Origin: a virus
IMG/VR virus record: IMGVR_UViG_3300046007_002545
Location: 1 to 34,066 of that record
Strand: one strand, 5' to 3'
DNA: 34,066 nt
Of the stretch, positions 2,665-17,960 are shown piece by piece (position 1 is the stretch's first letter; the number at the start of each line of letters is the position of its first letter). Position numbers and translations under genes: made by a program. Below the pieces are notes generated by a model, which was given only the letters and a program-made list of their open reading frames with translations, did not search any database and was not told the DNA's origin.

Positions 2665-4809
2665 CTAGAACAGTTCTTCGATCTCTAAGTAACTGGGTGT
2701 GCCGTCGCCGTGCCCCTCTTTAGGGGGGGGCACTGGCGGCACGTCACCGCTTTGTTGTGTGCCTGAGTGTGCCGCTGATGTGCCGCCGCGTCGTTCCGCG
2801 GTCTGACTGCGTGTGCCTGACGTGTGCCGAATATCGTCGTCGGTAGGCACGTCAGATAGTGTGCCGCGCTGTGTGCCTGACTCATCGAGATCACCTAACC
2901 ACGCGCTCATGTTGCCGTTTTCCAGTTTCTGACGTCGCATGCGTAGTGCTGATCTGAGCACGTCGCTGCTGCATTTGTGGCCGTGGTCTTTGAGCAGTTG
3001 CCTTGCTGTGCGCACTGGGATGTCGACGGCTGCGTGCAACTGGTCGAGTCGTGTGGCGGTTGCTTTGGCTGCGTCGCTGATCTCGTCGCCGAGCAGGTGG
3101 TGGGCGAGTTTGCCGTTGGTTTCGCGCAGTTCGATCTCCACCTTGTCGGGTATCCACTGCATTCGTCGGTGTGTGGCCTCGACCAAGATCGATGTTGGGC
3201 TGAGTTTGGTGAATCGCCACACCACATCGACGTCGTCGTTTTTGGCTGATGTTCCGCGTTGGCCTTTACCTGTGTCTTTGCCTGCGTGGTCTGCGCGTAT
3301 CCAGGTGACGCCTAGGGCTTTCATGTTGACACCTGACCACCTGTAGAATGCTCGCATTGTGTCGGCGTCGTTTTCTTCACCTTCCACTGCGCGCGCTGTG
3401 GTGTCGATGATGACGAGCACGCTGTTTGTGGCTTTGATCGCGTCGATGACTGCTTTCGCACCTTCTGGTGTGTCCAGACCGCCGATCGATGGCAGCAGCA
3501 CGTAGTGCAGGTGCGATAGGTCGTCGTCGATACTGTAGCCGAATGCGTCGAGTCGATCGCGTACGTCGCTGGCTGTCATCTCGAAATCGATATACAGCAC
3601 GTGTTGCGGTTCGCGTTTCGGCTGGTTGAGCACTGGCTTGCCTGTGGCGAGCGCGGCGGCAAGTTCCAGCAGCAGCAGCGATTTACCTGATTTAGCGCCT
3701 GCGTACAGTGCGTGCGCTCGGCCTTTGGCCAAGATCGGTTCTAGCAACCATTCTTGGTCGGTGGTGTCTTCTGTCCAGAGCCGTTGCCAGTCGACGTACC
3801 AGGTGGCGAGTGGGTCTTGGTTCGGTGTTTTGAGTGTTGGCGGTTGCTCTTGTTGAATCGAGCGTACCCAGTCGGCGATCTGTGTGTCGTTCTGGGCGGC
3901 GAGTATTCGTGCGGCTTCTTTGAAGTCTCCGTGGTGTCTGGTTTGTGTCCAATATCCGAAGCGATCGTAAGAGCCTGGTGGCAGGTTCGAGATCGATGTG
4001 GTGAACACGGTGAGACTGTCCGTGCCGTTGTGGTTGACTGTGGCGCTGATGCCGTCGCGTGGGTGTTTGCCTGGTCGTGTCCAGTAGTAGGTGTTGTTGC
4101 TGGGGTCGAAGTGGTGTGGTGTCCAGCCGTCTGCGGTTAGCAGTGTATCCCAGGTGGTCTCGCGGTTGAATCTTGTACCTGCACGGGTGTCGGTTTCTGG
4201 TGCGACGGTCGCTGTGGTGGCTGTGGTTGTGGTGGTGGGTGTGGCTGGTTCTGGTGTTAGCAGTCGGATGAGCCAGTCGGGTGCGGTGGCCATTTCGATC
4301 TCGCCGATCGCGTGGTCTTGTTCCCATTCGTAGTAGTTCCCGTTCGGGTGTATGGTGGGTGCGACTACGATCTGGGCGTTGGTGCAGCGGATGTCGATAC
4401 CAGCGCCGAGCAACCTGCCTGCACCGTTCCCGATGTCTGGGTGGTGGTCGGCGAGTCGGTACAACATGTGTGTGCCGCCTGAACCTGTGCGTGCGCGGAT
4501 GGTGTCGGGCAGTTGGCCGTGTTTCTGTTGCAGCCTGTTGATGGTGTCGCGACCTGACGCGTTTGGGTCGTGTTCGTCGACATCGAGCACGAAGAACCGT
4601 GTGCCGTTGTCGAGTTTGCCTGTGACGATGCCGATGCCGTGGTCGGCGTAGCGGTCTGTCCACCAGGCGGTGATCGTGCCTGTCTGGGTGGTGGCTGCGT
4701 CTTGCCAGGCGCTGATCGGTGGCCGTTTGTCTTTCGGTTTGATCGGGATTACGCGATAGCCGTGGCTAGCGTAGTGTGTCGCCCATTCCAGTGTTACGTT
4801 GTTTTGCAT
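2665..4809 (-). CDS. PrimPol-helicase replication protein (primase-polymerase fused to RecA-like ATPase)
   Basis: A 714-residue replication protein. Residues 1-180 are a bifunctional primase/polymerase domain: catalytic DVD at 76-78, SGGTH at 110-114 and the third acidic motif GIDIR with D139. A Thr-rich linker (about 186-203) and a middle domain follow. Residues 355-560 are a RecA-like ATPase: Walker A GAKSGKS (371-377), YIDFEM (406-411), Walker B LVIIDT (465-470), DHAGKD (507-512) and GQRGTSAK. The C-terminus holds a helical, possibly DNA-binding segment (about 575-615) and a polar, low-complexity tail. Such proteins prime, copy and unwind phage DNA. No family A, B or C polymerase is present in the window, so this may be the main replicase, as proposed for the PrimPol of cyanophage S-2L. 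The start follows an AAGGACAGA ribosome site. Confidence 0.9.
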   Translation of the reverse strand: MQNNVTLEWATHYASHGYRVIPIKPKDKRPPISAWQDAATTQTGTITAWWTDRYADHGIGIVTGKLDNGTRFFVLDVDEHDPNASGRDTINRLQQKHGQLPDTIRARTGSGGTHMLYRLADHHPDIGNGAGRLLGAGIDIRCTNAQIVVAPTIHPNGNYYEWEQDHAIGEIEMATAPDWLIRLLTPEPATPTTTTTATTATVAPETDTRAGTRFNRETTWDTLLTADGWTPHHFDPSNNTYYWTRPGKHPRDGISATVNHNGTDSLTVFTTSISNLPPGSYDRFGYWTQTRHHGDFKEAARILAAQNDTQIADWVRSIQQEQPPTLKTPNQDPLATWYVDWQRLWTEDTTDQEWLLEPILAKGRAHALYAGAKSGKSLLLLELAAALATGKPVLNQPKREPQHVLYIDFEMTASDVRDRLDAFGYSIDDDLSHLHYVLLPSIGGLDTPEGAKAVIDAIKATNSVLVIIDTTARAVEGEENDADTMRAFYRWSGVNMKALGVTWIRADHAGKDTGKGQRGTSAKNDDVDVVWRFTKLSPTSILVEATHRRMQWIPDKVEIELRETNGKLAHHLLGDEISDAAKATATRLDQLHAAVDIPVRTARQLLKDHGHKCSSDVLRSALRMRRQKLENGNMSAWLGDLDESGTQRGTLSDVPTDDDIRHTSGTRSQTAERRGGTSAAHSGTQQSGDVPPVPPPKEGHGDGTPSYLEIEELF

Positions 4810-5782: not shown

Positions 5783-5992
5783 CTATCTCCTTATTTGTTC
5801 GATGATGTTGGTGAGTTTACTGTGCAGGTGTGCGATCTCGTCTTGTTGGTCGCGTGCGACGACTCGTTCGATCAGGCTGCGGATGTAGATCAGGTCGCTA
5901 ACTGTTAGTGTCTCCGAACTGTTCAAAGATGAGTTTGAACTTGATGATTCTGACGTGGTGGTAGACGGTTGCTGTTGAGATTCCAAGGTCAC
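5783..5992 (-). CDS. hypothetical small helical protein, start uncertain
   Basis: Up to 69 residues from a GTG at 5992. The first 27 residues are Ser/Thr/Gln-rich low complexity and are read from the end of the WhiB gene in another frame. The likely functional part begins near ETLTVSDLIYIRSLIE and is a two-helix segment. An internal TTG at 5929 would give a shorter product, still overlapping the WhiB gene. The position in the operon and the helix pattern support a real gene, but the true start cannot be settled from sequence. Confidence 0.5.
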   Translation of the reverse strand: MTLESQQQPSTTTSESSSSNSSLNSSETLTVSDLIYIRSLIERVVARDQQDEIAHLHSKLTNIIEQIRR

Positions 5993-6341
5993 GCGCTGTT
6001 GCCTTCACTGGGTCGGTTCGGTTTTTATCCCGATGTTTCTGATAGGTGTTATACGTTAGCATTTCGCGTGTTCTGTCTTTGTTCGTTCTCGACGACGCTA
6101 TTTCGCGTCGTGCGCGTGGCGACAGACCGCCCCAAATGCCGTACTCGATGTCGTTGACGATCGCGTAACGTGCGCAGGCGTCTTGCACTGGGCAACGTTG
6201 GCAGACTGCTACCGCGTGAGCCGCGGCAGGGGTAGACATGTGATCTGGGAAGAAATCTACCCCTGCGTCGCGGCATGCGGCATTGACCATCCAGTCTGCT
6301 GTTGCGTCACGCAACGCTGGGTAGTCGAATGCGCTAGGCAT
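5898..6341 (-). CDS. WhiB-family regulator with C-terminal helix-turn-helix
   Basis: A 147-residue protein with the four cysteines of a WhiB iron-sulfur cluster: C23, C47, C50 and C56 (C-x23-C-xx-C-x5-C), followed by the G-I-W-G-G turn at 68-72. WhiB proteins are found in actinobacteria and their phages; they bind a 4Fe-4S cluster and act with the host principal sigma factor. Most phage WhiB proteins are about 80-110 residues. This one carries an extra tail with a resolvase-like helix-turn-helix (ARDLGISTATVYHHV, about residues 116-130) that could bind DNA directly. It is joined by 1-nt overlap to the next upstream gene in the replication operon. Likely a transcription switch for phage or host genes. 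Confidence 0.93.
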   Translation of the reverse strand: MPSAFDYPALRDATADWMVNAACRDAGVDFFPDHMSTPAAAHAVAVCQRCPVQDACARYAIVNDIEYGIWGGLSPRARREIASSRTNKDRTREMLTYNTYQKHRDKNRTDPVKATARDLGISTATVYHHVRIIKFKLIFEQFGDTNS

Positions 6342-8559: not shown

Positions 8560-9411
8560 TTACCTACCTGACGACCCGAAACCGTTCACTGAACGGTCTG
8601 AGTCTCCGAGTAGGCTACTCTGTTGCCACTTTAGCAGGTCGGCGACGTTGTTCATCGGCAATAGTTGCACGACTCGCTCGTTTGGCATGATCGTGGCGGT
8701 CTGCGTGCCGAAATTCCAGACGACGGCGAACAGTTCGCCTCGGAAGCCGTTATCGATCACCGACATCGGTGTGATCAGATTCCGTTTGGCGAATGTTGAC
8801 GAGCGCCCAGTGATGATCGCATACATGCCGCGCGGCAGTTGAATGCGCACACCAGTCGGTATCTTGGCCATAGCACCAGGCGCGATCTCCAACGGTGTGT
8901 GTCCGTTGTAGGCGAGATCGAACCCAGCGTCACCTTCGTGTGCTTTGCTCAGTTGCAGCGAGTTGCCGATGTAGTAGCCAGTGTTGGCGGCTTCACGTTC
9001 GTCGAGTGCTAGACATTGGGCGCGCCAACTTGCTGCTGGCAGGTCGCCCATGTCGTAGGCGTAGACGTTCGGGTGTGCAGCCCAGTGCTGTTCGATCAGC
9101 GACTTGTTGTTGTGCTCGTTGTAGAGCAACACAACTGGCACACCGATCTCGTTCGCTATCGCGATCTCGGCTGGCACACCACGTGACTTCGACCCTGATG
9201 GCAAGATCGCCACCATGCAGTCGCTTTGACGTAGCACCAATTCGTTGATTCGCTGCGTGCGTCGATCGAACGGCTGCTGTACTCTCCAGGCGGCTGCTGG
9301 TGTGAACACGCTGAGACCCTCGACTCGCAGTTCATCGAGCAGGTTGCTGGCGACTTGCCTGTCTTGTTCGGTGGCGAAGTCGATCGGCTGTGCGAAGTAG
9401 ATCAGCGCCAT
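8560..9411 (-). CDS. fused nucleoside deoxyribosyltransferase-like / dUTPase protein
   Basis: A 283-residue two-domain protein. Residues 1-110 resemble the nucleoside 2-deoxyribosyltransferase superfamily: IYFAQPID at the start, SDCMVAILP, then GVPAEIAIANEIGVPVVLLY with the Glu expected to be catalytic. Residues 135-283 are a trimeric-type dUTPase with all five motifs: DAGFDLA, GRSSTFAKR, VIDNGFRGEL (catalytic Asp), ERVVQLL and the C-terminal GFGSSGR. The dUTPase half turns dUTP into dUMP and keeps uracil out of DNA. The first half could exchange or hydrolyse bases on deoxynucleosides or their monophosphates. It is the last gene of the purZ operon and overlaps the previous gene by 10 nt. The dUTPase call is firm; the substrate of the first domain is unknown. 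Confidence 0.87.
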   Translation of the reverse strand: MALIYFAQPIDFATEQDRQVASNLLDELRVEGLSVFTPAAAWRVQQPFDRRTQRINELVLRQSDCMVAILPSGSKSRGVPAEIAIANEIGVPVVLLYNEHNNKSLIEQHWAAHPNVYAYDMGDLPAASWRAQCLALDEREAANTGYYIGNSLQLSKAHEGDAGFDLAYNGHTPLEIAPGAMAKIPTGVRIQLPRGMYAIITGRSSTFAKRNLITPMSVIDNGFRGELFAVVWNFGTQTATIMPNERVVQLLPMNNVADLLKWQQSSLLGDSDRSVNGFGSSGR

Positions 9412-9620
9412 CGGTTGATCACGATCTCGTCTGGGCTGCAGTTCGGTCGCACGACGGTCTCTTGCAAAACAGCGCCGTGATCATTGACGAACTGCACCAG
9501 TTCGACGGTGCGGTTGATGTTGACGCGGTGCTGTGCTTCTGCCAGTTGGTAGCGGTATAGACCGCTGGTGCGGCAGATGTTGACTGCGTCGATTCCGTCT
9601 GGTAGTTGGCTGTTGCTCAT
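9402..9620 (-). CDS. hypothetical protein in the purZ operon
   Basis: A 72-residue protein starting MSNSQLPDGIDAV. I chose the ATG at 9620 because it forms a 4-nt ATGA overlap with the MazG-like gene. A helical middle (YRYQLAEAQHRVN) is followed by strands (VELVQFVNDHG and AVLQETVV). No motif or family recognised. Being locked by overlaps between the MazG-like and the dUTPase fusion genes suggests a part in the same nucleotide pathway or complex. Confidence 0.65.
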   Translation of the reverse strand: MSNSQLPDGIDAVNICRTSGLYRYQLAEAQHRVNINRTVELVQFVNDHGAVLQETVVRPNCSPDEIVINRWR

Positions 9621-9934
9621 AACACTCCGTTTCTGGTTGCTAGTACCATCTTTGCGTAGACCGCGAGATCGTGCCACGTGTCATCGCTAGCCTGGCCGCC
9701 GTTCTCTACTGCGGACAGCAGCCGTTGCACTTTGCCGACGACGTAGAACAACACGCCGATCTCGTAGTGCTCTTGCGCTGTGACGCCAAGACCTGCAAGT
9801 TTGGCGAATGTCTCGCCGATGACGTAGAGATCGCCAGCACCGTACTCGGCCATTTTGACCAACATGCCGTCGACTTCGTTGGTGGCGTACTCGATCCACC
9901 ACTCGCGTGCTTTCTCGTTGTGTATCTTCATCAT
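9617..9934 (-). CDS. MazG-like nucleotide pyrophosphohydrolase, candidate MazZ
   Basis: A 105-residue all-helical protein. The pattern (NEKAREWWIEYATNEVD, KMAEYG-GDL, then HYEIGVLFYVVGKVQR, and DDTWHDLAVYAKM) matches small MazG-like or DUF550-like proteins that are frequent in actinophages. Acidic residues on successive helices (E20, D22, E30, E56, E59, D85, D89) could bind Mg2+. MazZ in Z-genome phages cuts dGTP to dGMP, the PurZ substrate. This gene starts inside the stop codon of the purZ-like gene (4-nt overlap), so the two are translated together. The MazG-like fold is a reasonable call; the MazZ role rests on the neighbour. Confidence 0.68.
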   Translation of the reverse strand: MMKIHNEKAREWWIEYATNEVDGMLVKMAEYGAGDLYVIGETFAKLAGLGVTAQEHYEIGVLFYVVGKVQRLLSAVENGGQASDDTWHDLAVYAKMVLATRNGVL

Positions 9935-11082
9935 GGCCTGGTGTCGTTCCAGTTGCGCACGACGTCGAGCAGACGGTCGTTGGTGATCACGGTCTTGGGT
10001 GACGTGCCGAACATCGCGATCTCACAACCGAGATCGGCTTCGCACACGGCCAGCCGCTGGTGCAGTTGTCCGAACGCTGCGTTCATCATCAAGTCATAGG
10101 ACTCGACGCCTGCGATCATCGGCTCGAAATAGTCGATGAACATCAGACACGGGTGCAAGTGTGGGTTCGCGCCGCCGTTTGCTGCGACTGCTTCACGCAC
10201 AACTTGCACATCCCACTCGGCGACTCGTCTGATCTTCTTGGTGACGGTGGTGCGCTCTGGTTGGATGTAGCCGCCGCTGATCTGGCCGAGTGTCTCCCAG
10301 TCGAGTTCACGCCCATCCATGCTGCCGCTGTTACCTGCGACGCGGATGGGGTAGGTGCGCAACACGAGCCAGGTGTGCACGTCTCGTGGCTTCATCGGGC
10401 TGAGTGGCGTGTAGCCGATCTGGGCGAGCAGGTCGACCGTGCGGCAGTCGCCGCTGGTGGTCTGCGGATAGAACCGCGTGTGCATGCCCAGGCCGTAGCC
10501 CTGTGTGCCTTCAACGATCACGTGCTGGTTGTTCTCGTGTGCTTCAGCGATCAACGGTGCAGTGTCGCAGATTTGGTCTTCGCTGTTGATGAACTCAAGC
10601 AGTCGATCGTGGTGGTCGCGTGCGATCGTTGCGGTGCGCATGATTCGATCTGCACGTGCAGCGCCGATGCCTTTCGACGTTGAACCTGTGCGTGCGTTGA
10701 TGTCGCTGCCCGATTCGCGGTCGATGTGCTTCTGTTCCAGGATGGTTGCATACTGGTCGATGATCAGACGGCTGGACACTGCGTAGCCTGCAGCGTCGAG
10801 CGCGTCGACTTCGCTTTCCAGAACGTCGCAGTCGATCTCGCTGCCTTGGGCGATGTAGAGCCTGGCGTCGCGGTCGATGACTGCAGCGACTGGCACTTGA
10901 CGCAGCGCCCACAACTGGCCGCGGTCGTCGATGGCGCTGTGTCCAGCGTTGCTACCACCGACGCGCACTAGGTGCAGTGGTCGGTCGAGTTTGCTGGTGT
11001 TGAATCGTTTAGCGAGTTGTGCGGCTACGTGGCCTTTGGCCTCGCTGCCGAACTGCCCACCAACGACGCAGTGGATGGTCAT
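9931..11082 (-). CDS. purZ: PurZ-like 2-aminoadenylosuccinate synthetase
   Basis: A 383-residue member of the adenylosuccinate synthetase superfamily (bacterial PurA is about 430). The N-terminal loop reads GGQFGSEAKGH (8-18). PurA has QWGDEGKGK there, with Asp13 as catalytic base; here residue 13 is Ser and the Trp is Phe. That swap is the known signature of PurZ, which joins Asp to dGMP to give the precursor of 2-amino-dAMP. The second catalytic His is kept (SNAGH, H48). EGTQGYGLG, YPQTTSGDC and TTVTKKIRRVAEWD are the other PurA-family motifs. AAGGAGAGACAG precedes the ATG. It heads a four-gene overlapping operon with a MazG-like gene. A phage form of PurA making AMP is the alternative, but the missing Asp argues against it. 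Confidence 0.88.
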   Translation of the reverse strand: MTIHCVVGGQFGSEAKGHVAAQLAKRFNTSKLDRPLHLVRVGGSNAGHSAIDDRGQLWALRQVPVAAVIDRDARLYIAQGSEIDCDVLESEVDALDAAGYAVSSRLIIDQYATILEQKHIDRESGSDINARTGSTSKGIGAARADRIMRTATIARDHHDRLLEFINSEDQICDTAPLIAEAHENNQHVIVEGTQGYGLGMHTRFYPQTTSGDCRTVDLLAQIGYTPLSPMKPRDVHTWLVLRTYPIRVAGNSGSMDGRELDWETLGQISGGYIQPERTTVTKKIRRVAEWDVQVVREAVAANGGANPHLHPCLMFIDYFEPMIAGVESYDLMMNAAFGQLHQRLAVCEADLGCEIAMFGTSPKTVITNDRLLDVVRNWNDTRP

Positions 11083-16458: not shown

Positions 16459-16620
16459 TCAGTCCTCTTGCGATAAGTAGGTGAACAACCAGTGTATCAC
16501 GATGGTGGTGGCGGCTGTGAACAATGCCGCTGTCCTGGTCGCACCGCTCAACGTGATAAGAATGAACACGACGCCTGCCCAAGTCCACGCGTTATCACGC
16601 AGATACTCGAACAGTTTCAT
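16459..16620 (-). CDS. second small holin-like membrane protein
   Basis: A 53-residue protein beginning MKLFEYLRDNAWTW. Two short hydrophobic segments (about 15-25 and 31-46) are joined by SGATRT; the C-terminus is acidic. It overlaps the stop codon of the upstream PA14-like gene by 4 nt and ends 1 nt before the r1t-like holin start. Pairs of small membrane proteins in this position are often holin and antiholin, which would suit here. Confidence 0.65.
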   Translation of the reverse strand: MKLFEYLRDNAWTWAGVVFILITLSGATRTAALFTAATTIVIHWLFTYLSQED

Positions 16621-17960
16621 CTCATTCTCCTCGTTGGTGCGGCTACGGCAGACAGTGTAGCAGCGGCCGCCACCAGTGTACGTCGCACAGATACTGGAAC
16701 GGTAGAACCGACTGGCACGTAACTGTCGAACTTGCCACTGTACACGTTGATCTCTTGTTCAAACGCTTGACGCACTTCGGTCGGCGCTTCTTGCACAGCC
16801 TCGACCAGTGCGATCGCTTGGCTGTCGGTCAGTTCTGAAGTGTCGATAGCGTCGAACACCTGCTCGGCTTGTTGTTCGCTGATCGTGGCAAGAACCGCTG
16901 CACTGGTGACGACGGTGAGCGCTTGCTCTTGCGTGATCGGCGTGTCTTGCTCTAACGCAGCGACGACGTCGTTCGCTGTTTCAGTCTCTTCGATCAGTTG
17001 TTGCGGTTCGATCTCGACGATCGTTGTGGTCGTGGTCTCGATCGGTTCGTCGACTGGTAGACTGGTCACCGATGTTGTGGTTTCAGTTGTTGTTTCTGGT
17101 TCTGGCTGCGGTTGTTCTTCCTGTGGCGATTCTGACGGCTCGGTCGTCACGGGTTCAGGGTCTGTTGATGTTGGTGGAACTTCCACTACTAGCGTGGATG
17201 ACGTGGCTGGTGGCAACGTACCAGCGCTAGGCGGCTGAACGTAGACAGTCGTGGTTGTGGTCGTGGTTGTGGTCGTTGTTGACGTTGTGGTGGTTTCTGG
17301 CTCAGACGTCGACGTACTCGCCTGAATACTGCTGGTCGTTGCTTCCTGAAGCGTCGTAGTAGTGACTTCCGTGACAGGCACAGTCTCGATCGGGGCAGTA
17401 GTAGTAGTGGTCGTCGTCGGTGTTGTGTACTCCGTTGTAAATGCCCATGTCGGTACGATCTCCCAGTCTGCAGCGTCGTTGCCTAACTGCCAGAAAAGCA
17501 TAGCGCACGTGCCGCCACCGTTCTCGTACACCCATGCGTCGAGCGGCGCTGCACCGTCAAGTTCTACGCGATCGCTGTAAGTGATGCTGCAACCTTGATC
17601 TTGCCAACTACCGAACTGGTGGCCACCGATATCAACCCAGCCGCCGTCGTCTGACGCGATCGCAAACCGCACCGACGTGACACCACTGGGCAGTTCGATC
17701 TGTCCTGTGTAGTGCACCATGAATGAATCCCAACCGCAGTCGCCCAGGTGATTCTGCTCGTAATCCCAAGTCCAATTGATGTTCGGGTAGATGGTCTCGC
17801 CGCACACCGTGTACAGATCGTCGCTGCGTGTTGGTGGTGTCTCGTCGACGTGGTAACCAACTGCGCGCAACCCCGATACGGCTTCTGCGTTGACTTGGCT
17901 ATTAGATAGCGCAAAAAACAACAACGGTGTGAGCACTGCCCAACGTGCAGCGCGCGTCAC
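16617..17960 (-). CDS. secreted PA14-like protein with Thr-rich stalk
   Basis: A 447-residue protein with five parts. A signal peptide covers residues 1-25 (basic start, hydrophobic LTPLLFFAL, cleavage near VNA). Residues 30-175 look like a PA14 carbohydrate-binding domain, with IASDDGGWVDIGGHQFGSW as its core and six Cys. Residues about 176-330 are a Thr/Ser/Pro/Glu-rich stalk with runs of Thr. Residues about 332-400 are helical. The C-terminus has VPVGSTVPVSVRRTLV, an Ala-rich hydrophobic stretch and a basic end (RRMR). This design resembles a host surface protein. It sits between tail fibre and holin genes and overlaps both neighbours by 4 nt. It may be a tail-linked adhesin or be displayed by the infected cell; the signal peptide favours export. 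Confidence 0.7.
   Translation of the reverse strand: MTRAARWAVLTPLLFFALSNSQVNAEAVSGLRAVGYHVDETPPTRSDDLYTVCGETIYPNINWTWDYEQNHLGDCGWDSFMVHYTGQIELPSGVTSVRFAIASDDGGWVDIGGHQFGSWQDQGCSITYSDRVELDGAAPLDAWVYENGGGTCAMLFWQLGNDAADWEIVPTWAFTTEYTTPTTTTTTTAPIETVPVTEVTTTTLQEATTSSIQASTSTSEPETTTTSTTTTTTTTTTTVYVQPPSAGTLPPATSSTLVVEVPPTSTDPEPVTTEPSESPQEEQPQPEPETTTETTTSVTSLPVDEPIETTTTTIVEIEPQQLIEETETANDVVAALEQDTPITQEQALTVVTSAAVLATISEQQAEQVFDAIDTSELTDSQAIALVEAVQEAPTEVRQAFEQEINVYSGKFDSYVPVGSTVPVSVRRTLVAAAATLSAVAAPTRRMR

Follow-up and report, generated by a model that had tools for sequence, protein, structure and literature searches.

A PurZ0 operon in an actinophage-like genome in which a PrimPol-helicase is the only polymerase found

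The operon and its genomic setting

The window, that is, the whole stretch of DNA analysed here, is a virus record of 34,066 bp in the form of a linear contig without end repeats. Nearly all of its genes lie on the minus strand and, read from the right end, encode terminase, portal, protease, major head protein and tape measure, followed by the early genes. The following features are relevant to the analysis.

9931-11082, minus strand: purZ0, predicted 2-amino-adenylosuccinate synthetase of the PurZ0 type (383 aa; Ser13/Glu14/His48), assigned from phrog_1211, PDB 7vf6, tree position and active-site alignment
9617-9934, minus strand: gene X, a 105-aa, all-helical protein by its model, described through homologues, PurZ linkage and fold matches
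9402-9620, minus strand: gene for a 72-aa protein without assigned function, its junction read directly
8560-9411, minus strand: DmtZ-DutZ fusion, with an N-terminal deoxyribosyltransferase-like domain (PF05014, 3e-7) and a C-terminal dUTPase domain (PF00692, 2e-20), assigned also from its likeness to an Arthrobacter phage fusion and its catalytic residues
6688-8139, minus strand: exonuclease (PD-(D/E)XK/Cas4-like; phrog_298, 7.5e-41) adjoining the operon
5898-6341, minus strand: WhiB-like regulator (phrog_472, 7e-21)
2665-4809, minus strand: PrimPol-helicase of 714 aa (PF09250, 4e-39; AAA_25, 7e-29; PHROG primase/polymerase; motifs)

The operon consists of four serially overlapping genes, with overlaps of 4 nt (ATGA) between purZ0 and X, 4 nt (ATGA) between X and the 72-aa gene, and 10 nt between the latter and DmtZ-DutZ. 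For the 72-aa gene, the ATG at 9620, which overlaps the stop of X, is a more probable start than the GTG at 9677, and homologues of this gene are confined to close relatives of the window (L012-L017). An initial annotation of this DNA had described overlapping genes downstream of a PurA relative, a deoxyribosyltransferase-like/dUTPase fusion among them, in a phage carrying WhiB, and all three observations are borne out by the overlaps and family matches given above. The presence of a WhiB-like regulator suggests that the phage infects actinobacteria. The neighbouring exonuclease likely has a role in recombination and is not counted as part of Z synthesis. The window proteins scanned include no phage PurB, and the host enzyme is assumed to act instead; the window ORFs scanned gave no DatZ- or MazZ-type matches. 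Outside the operon, a 447-aa protein encoded between tail and lysis-like genes (16617-17960) has no Pfam or PHROG matches.

The PurA relative belongs to the phage PurZ0 clade

The protein encoded by purZ0, starting with MTIHCVVGGQFGSEAKGH, carries Ser13 in alignment with Asp13 of E. coli PurA, while Glu14 and an NAGH motif with H48 are kept. It matches phrog_1211 (4e-75) and PF00709 (6e-30), and its best solved relative is PDB 7vf6 (1.3e-69), the PurZ0 of Gordonia phage Archimedes (PMC12884076); matches of this strength are well outside what chance would yield. In two maximum-likelihood trees it groups inside PurZ0 with the proteins of phages Wayne, Ghobes and Archimedes (100/100 and 100/99), apart from PurA and from PurZ of the S-2L/phiVC8 type. 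PurA and PurZ are joined by long branches, which makes the deep order of the tree unsure and leaves the PurZ0 grouping unaffected. The initial reading as a PurZ-type enzyme, with Ser for the catalytic Asp13 and H48 kept, agrees with both alignment and tree; the placement in a PurA/PurZ tree that it had proposed as a check puts the protein inside the phage PurZ0 clade (100/100) and not in PurA. The gene is a purZ0, and by homology its product would condense dGMP with aspartate.

Among isolates, Streptomyces phage Galactica has the PurZ most identical to that of the window (46.5%). Descent of the window's gene arrangement from one of the Hiyaa type was considered and rejected, as the PurZ tree does not group the two. 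The scan of IMG/VR for close relatives found nothing when the PurZ protein alone was the query, and succeeded with an alignment.

Scanning the genomes of bacteria and archaea brought up further PurZ-like genes (loci L178-L256). Their counterpart of Asp13 is Ser in 69 of 80 and Gly in 10 of 80, and in the tree they branch separately from phage PurZ0. Among 30 loci sampled, they belong to a conserved cassette in which a gene of about 680 aa lies upstream (RNase H-like/kinase-like, DUF429 in some; 26/30) and a dCTP-deaminase-like gene downstream (28/30), sometimes together with a deoxynucleoside kinase (e.g. L180:5964-10113, L183:5917-10715, L179:6367-10156 and L188:5962-9858). The dCTP-deaminase/dUTPase neighbour recalls DutZ, and PADLOC matches are weak (PDC-S44). 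The patchy spread of the cassette over many phyla suggests that it is mobile, and it may serve cells as a Z-nucleotide or defence system. Separately, a phage contig with a PurZ0-type gene (L177; 43% identity) has apparently been binned with a Verrucomicrobia MAG, which may hint at a non-actinobacterial host.

Gene X is a near-constant partner of purZ0

Homologues of gene X were detected by tblastn in 31 phage records (Microbacterium 18, Gordonia 6, Streptomyces 5, Curtobacterium 1, Micrococcus 1), all of them labelled 'hypothetical protein', and the genera and their counts match those of the non-Arthrobacter actinophage PurZ0 records. In Arthrobacter phages, DUF5664 occupies the position of X. 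A scan of viral contigs seeded with X only returned 66 loci, with PurZ directly upstream in 60/60 of those having enough upstream sequence; the contigs include many near-duplicates, and 59 X sequences are left after removal of those more than 85% alike. Starting from PurZ0, either X (68 loci) or DUF5664 (5 loci) follows within 1.5 kb in 73 of 74 loci, the exception being L089. Gene X is a PurZ0-specific, near-obligate partner. Matches to X and to DUF5664 never occur in one locus, and hhalign of X against DUF5664-1 of Wayne, with a DUF5664 set of six sequences, gave a probability of 0.1; on these grounds, identification of X as DUF5664 was rejected.

The AlphaFold model of X (pLDDT 95.6) has four helices. 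Beyond direct homologues, viral Nmad1/DUF6378 domains are among its best viral structure matches (Foldseek probability up to 1.0, TM about 0.5-0.6, E 0.08 or worse), while the DUF6378 Pfam match is weak (best E 0.03, in 2 of 60 sequences) and single X sequences searched against Pfam were uninformative. Comparison with DCTPP1, HisE and MazG chains gave VIA Z values of 4.3-6.0, which for helical bundles are only suggestive; Foldseek against PDB returned no match with E below 1e-3, and hhalign found none between X and MazZ of S-2L entered as a single sequence. Residues K27, L36, K68, R71, D85, D89 and Y93 are invariant, and the conserved acidic residues fit the MazG ExxE...ExxD pattern imperfectly, with no clean mapping. 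The label 'MazG-like' in the initial annotation has no Pfam support from 9617-9934 alone, but fold comparison leads to the related Nmad1/DUF6378 type. The modelled X protein resembles Nmad1/DUF6378 domains, of the MazG-like all-alpha group, and, weakly, MazG/HisE enzymes, although its sequence similarity to the Nmad1/DUF6378 phage domains is too weak for membership. From fold and linkage, X is a predicted dNTP pyrophosphohydrolase. It recurs in almost all PurZ0 operons under the annotation 'hypothetical' and is a clear candidate for a missing enzyme of the pathway.

The DmtZ-DutZ fusion retains known catalytic residues

In 2026, PurZ0 together with DmtZ/DutZ was characterised from Wayne and Ghobes, DmtZ and DutZ being fused in Wayne (PMC12884076). 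In both phages, DutZ was measured to cut dATP, dGTP and dUTP, and DmtZ to convert dAMP to adenine, with a deoxyribose phosphate that can be transferred to the Z base (PMC12884076). The window fusion is about 30% identical to an Arthrobacter phage fusion over 99% of its length. Residues Y6, D12, P57, N77, E103 and W124 of Ghobes DmtZ, whose roles are discussed in the same work (PMC12884076), are all present in the window protein as Y5, D11, P39, N57, E83 and W106. Judging from these sequence features, the DmtZ half is probably a dAMP hydrolase/deoxyribosylphosphate transferase and the DutZ half a dATP/dGTP/dUTP diphosphatase. The suggestion that the window holds a new set of partners proved mostly wrong: PurZ0 with DmtZ-DutZ is published for Wayne (PMC12884076), and Streptomyces phages Galactica and Hiyaa already show the order purZ0 - X - DmtZ-DutZ.

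DpoZ is absent from an essentially complete genome

The PrimPol-helicase, with intact AEP motifs (D76xD78, S110GGTH114, D139), a P-loop at 370-377 and a RepA-like helicase part, is the only polymerase found in the window genome. PF00476 (PolA/DpoZ) was not found in the window, nor in 36 of the 40 records of relatives, while Prim-Pol PF09250 is present in 35 of these. PF00136 (PolB) is missing from all 40, and PolB was rejected as an alternative polymerase. The window clade comprises 11 tree rows (100/98); none of the ten nearest relatives (G001-G010) has PolA and all ten have PF09250. Every cultured PurZ0 phage examined has DNA polymerase I (DpoZ), and Prim-Pol proteins also occur in PurZ0 phages possessing DpoZ. 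PolA-less PurZ0 phages are found as well in tree groups distant from the window (the L037/L075 and L131-L134 groups), which suggests losses or gains of DpoZ on more than one occasion. Within the L131-L134 group, Prim-Pol was found in G025-G028 and not in G029.

Some individual records deserve separate mention. G029 (locus L132; 38,426 bp, with end repeats) is an apparently complete PurZ0 phage in which Pfam detects no PolA, PolB or Prim-Pol. L036 and L090, on contigs of 94 kb and 81 kb, are large-genome PurZ0 phages that form basal branches among the phage PurZ0 proteins; both are without PolA, and in the L090 record Prim-Pol was not found either.

Because the window record has no end repeats, its completeness rests on comparison with G003, which holds the junction broken in the window in one piece. 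There, the stretch from the 541-like gene to TerS measures 680 bp; the window sequence outside these two genes amounts to 669 bp, both ends taken together. The nearest relative, G001, has a gene extent equal to that of the window, and two complete relatives, G008 (34,644 bp; end repeat of 159 bp, 158 identical) and G013 (34,080 bp; 99-bp end repeat), carry PurZ0 and PrimPol without PolA or PolB. From this comparison of sequences, the window appears to span essentially the entire genome, leaving no space for a polymerase gene. Unassigned proteins of 800 aa and 625 aa in G008 and G013 were rejected as hidden polymerases: they are tail fibres, in which a match to phrog_22681 ('DNA polymerase') covers only about 45 residues alongside many fibre families. 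G008 also encodes a DNA methyltransferase outside the Z operon (L155:11338-12516), which, if an adenine methylase, would be odd for a phage whose DNA may lack adenine.

The initial annotation recognised a PurZ-type operon and missed both the absence of DpoZ and the near-obligate partnership of X. What appears new is the lack of DpoZ, both in this essentially complete genome and across its clade, together with the X linkage. Our search found no literature on DpoZ-less PurZ0 phages; it missed key papers, so that priority is not certain. Key papers on the subject have appeared in Science and Nature Microbiology.

Comparison with known Z systems

The Wayne/Ghobes system comprises PurZ0, DmtZ, DutZ, DUF5664-1 and DpoZ-1 (PMC12884076). 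The window shares with it the PurZ0 clade, the catalytic residues of DmtZ and DutZ, the gene order and a small dNTP-hydrolase-like gene directly after purZ0, which is DUF5664 in Wayne and the X homologue gp51 in Ghobes. Unlike these phages, the window has no DpoZ-1 (PolA family), and its X is a stand-alone 105-aa domain rather than the DUF5664 of Wayne; its PurZ is just 42-47% identical to theirs and its DmtZ-DutZ about 30%. Galactica and Hiyaa (Hiyaavirus) likewise encode PurZ0, an X-domain protein and a DmtZ-DutZ fusion in this order. However, they possess DNA polymerase I, a PurB-like lyase and a genome of 81-83 kb, and their X domain is fused to a long N-terminal extension.

In polymerase content, the window is more like cyanophage S-2L (PurZ, MazZ, DatZ, PrimPol), which also lacks DpoZ and has PrimPol as its only polymerase. 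The S-2L PrimPol, the sole possible polymerase of that phage, does not discriminate between A and Z, and DatZ removes dATP (PMC8065100). In both phages, for the window presumptively, exclusion of A is left to nucleotide hydrolases. On the other hand, S-2L PurZ belongs to a different clade, the two PrimPols are 21% identical over the alignment and differ in the helicase part, and in place of an S-2L-like cluster with datZ and mazZ by purZ, the neighbours in the window are X, the 72-aa gene and DmtZ-DutZ.

A putative pathway for Z without a Z-selective polymerase

We propose, with a probability of roughly three in four, that the operon supplies dZTP and eliminates dATP, and that Z would thereby replace A in a genome copied non-selectively, A being excluded by dATP depletion. 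DutZ, the C-terminal half of 8560-9411, probably together with gene X, would convert dGTP and dATP to monophosphates. PurZ0 would join dGMP to aspartate, host PurB would release dZMP, and host kinases would raise this to dZTP. DmtZ, the N-terminal half, would destroy the resulting dAMP or shift its sugar phosphate to free Z base; rephosphorylation would be prevented, and DutZ followed by DmtZ could do the job of DatZ in S-2L. As no DpoZ is present, the genome would be copied by the PrimPol-helicase or a host replicase without choice between A and Z, and with PrimPol as the only polymerase and none that is Z-selective, adenine would be excluded by cleaning of the nucleotide pool, as in S-2L. 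Depletion of dATP alone may lead to partial replacement by Z.

Two alternatives that would dispense with this pathway or with its non-selective copying are both highly improbable. An ordinary adenylosuccinate synthetase that raises the AMP supply of a phage with normal adenine would be compatible with the PF00709 match, yet the catalytic Asp is replaced by Ser13, the protein lies well away from PurA in the tree and its gene is linked to DmtZ-DutZ, whose relatives destroy dATP and dAMP; tree position and Ser13 led us to reject ordinary PurA. A Z-selective polymerase encoded outside the assembled window is conceivable for a linear contig without end repeats, but hardly to be reconciled with the approximately 680 bp between the two end genes in G003, the equal gene extent of G001 and the complete genomes of G008 and G013, which lack PolA and PolB.

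A less remote, though still unlikely, arrangement is one in which the phage makes Z and host DNA polymerase III copies the genome, PrimPol serving as primase-helicase only. Such a priming role is plausible, given that Prim-Pol proteins also occur in DpoZ-bearing PurZ0 phages; against it, phage AEP polymerases have been described as replicating DNA in S-2L and NrS-1, and the window PrimPol keeps its polymerase motifs. Extended to the family, the odds seem about even that Z stands in for A throughout a large, uncultured PurZ0 phage branch that has no Z-selective polymerase, by means of a PrimPol and of pool cleaning by DutZ, DmtZ and the Nmad1/DUF6378-like X.

As to whether Z genomes need a Z-selective polymerase, the described exception was S-2L; PurZ0 genomes that are essentially complete and have only a PrimPol allow this need to be tested in another PurZ branch, separate from that of S-2L. 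If the proposal is true, the DpoZ-less PurZ0 branch parallels S-2L independently, and X would give a lead on what the Nmad1/DUF6378 fold group does.
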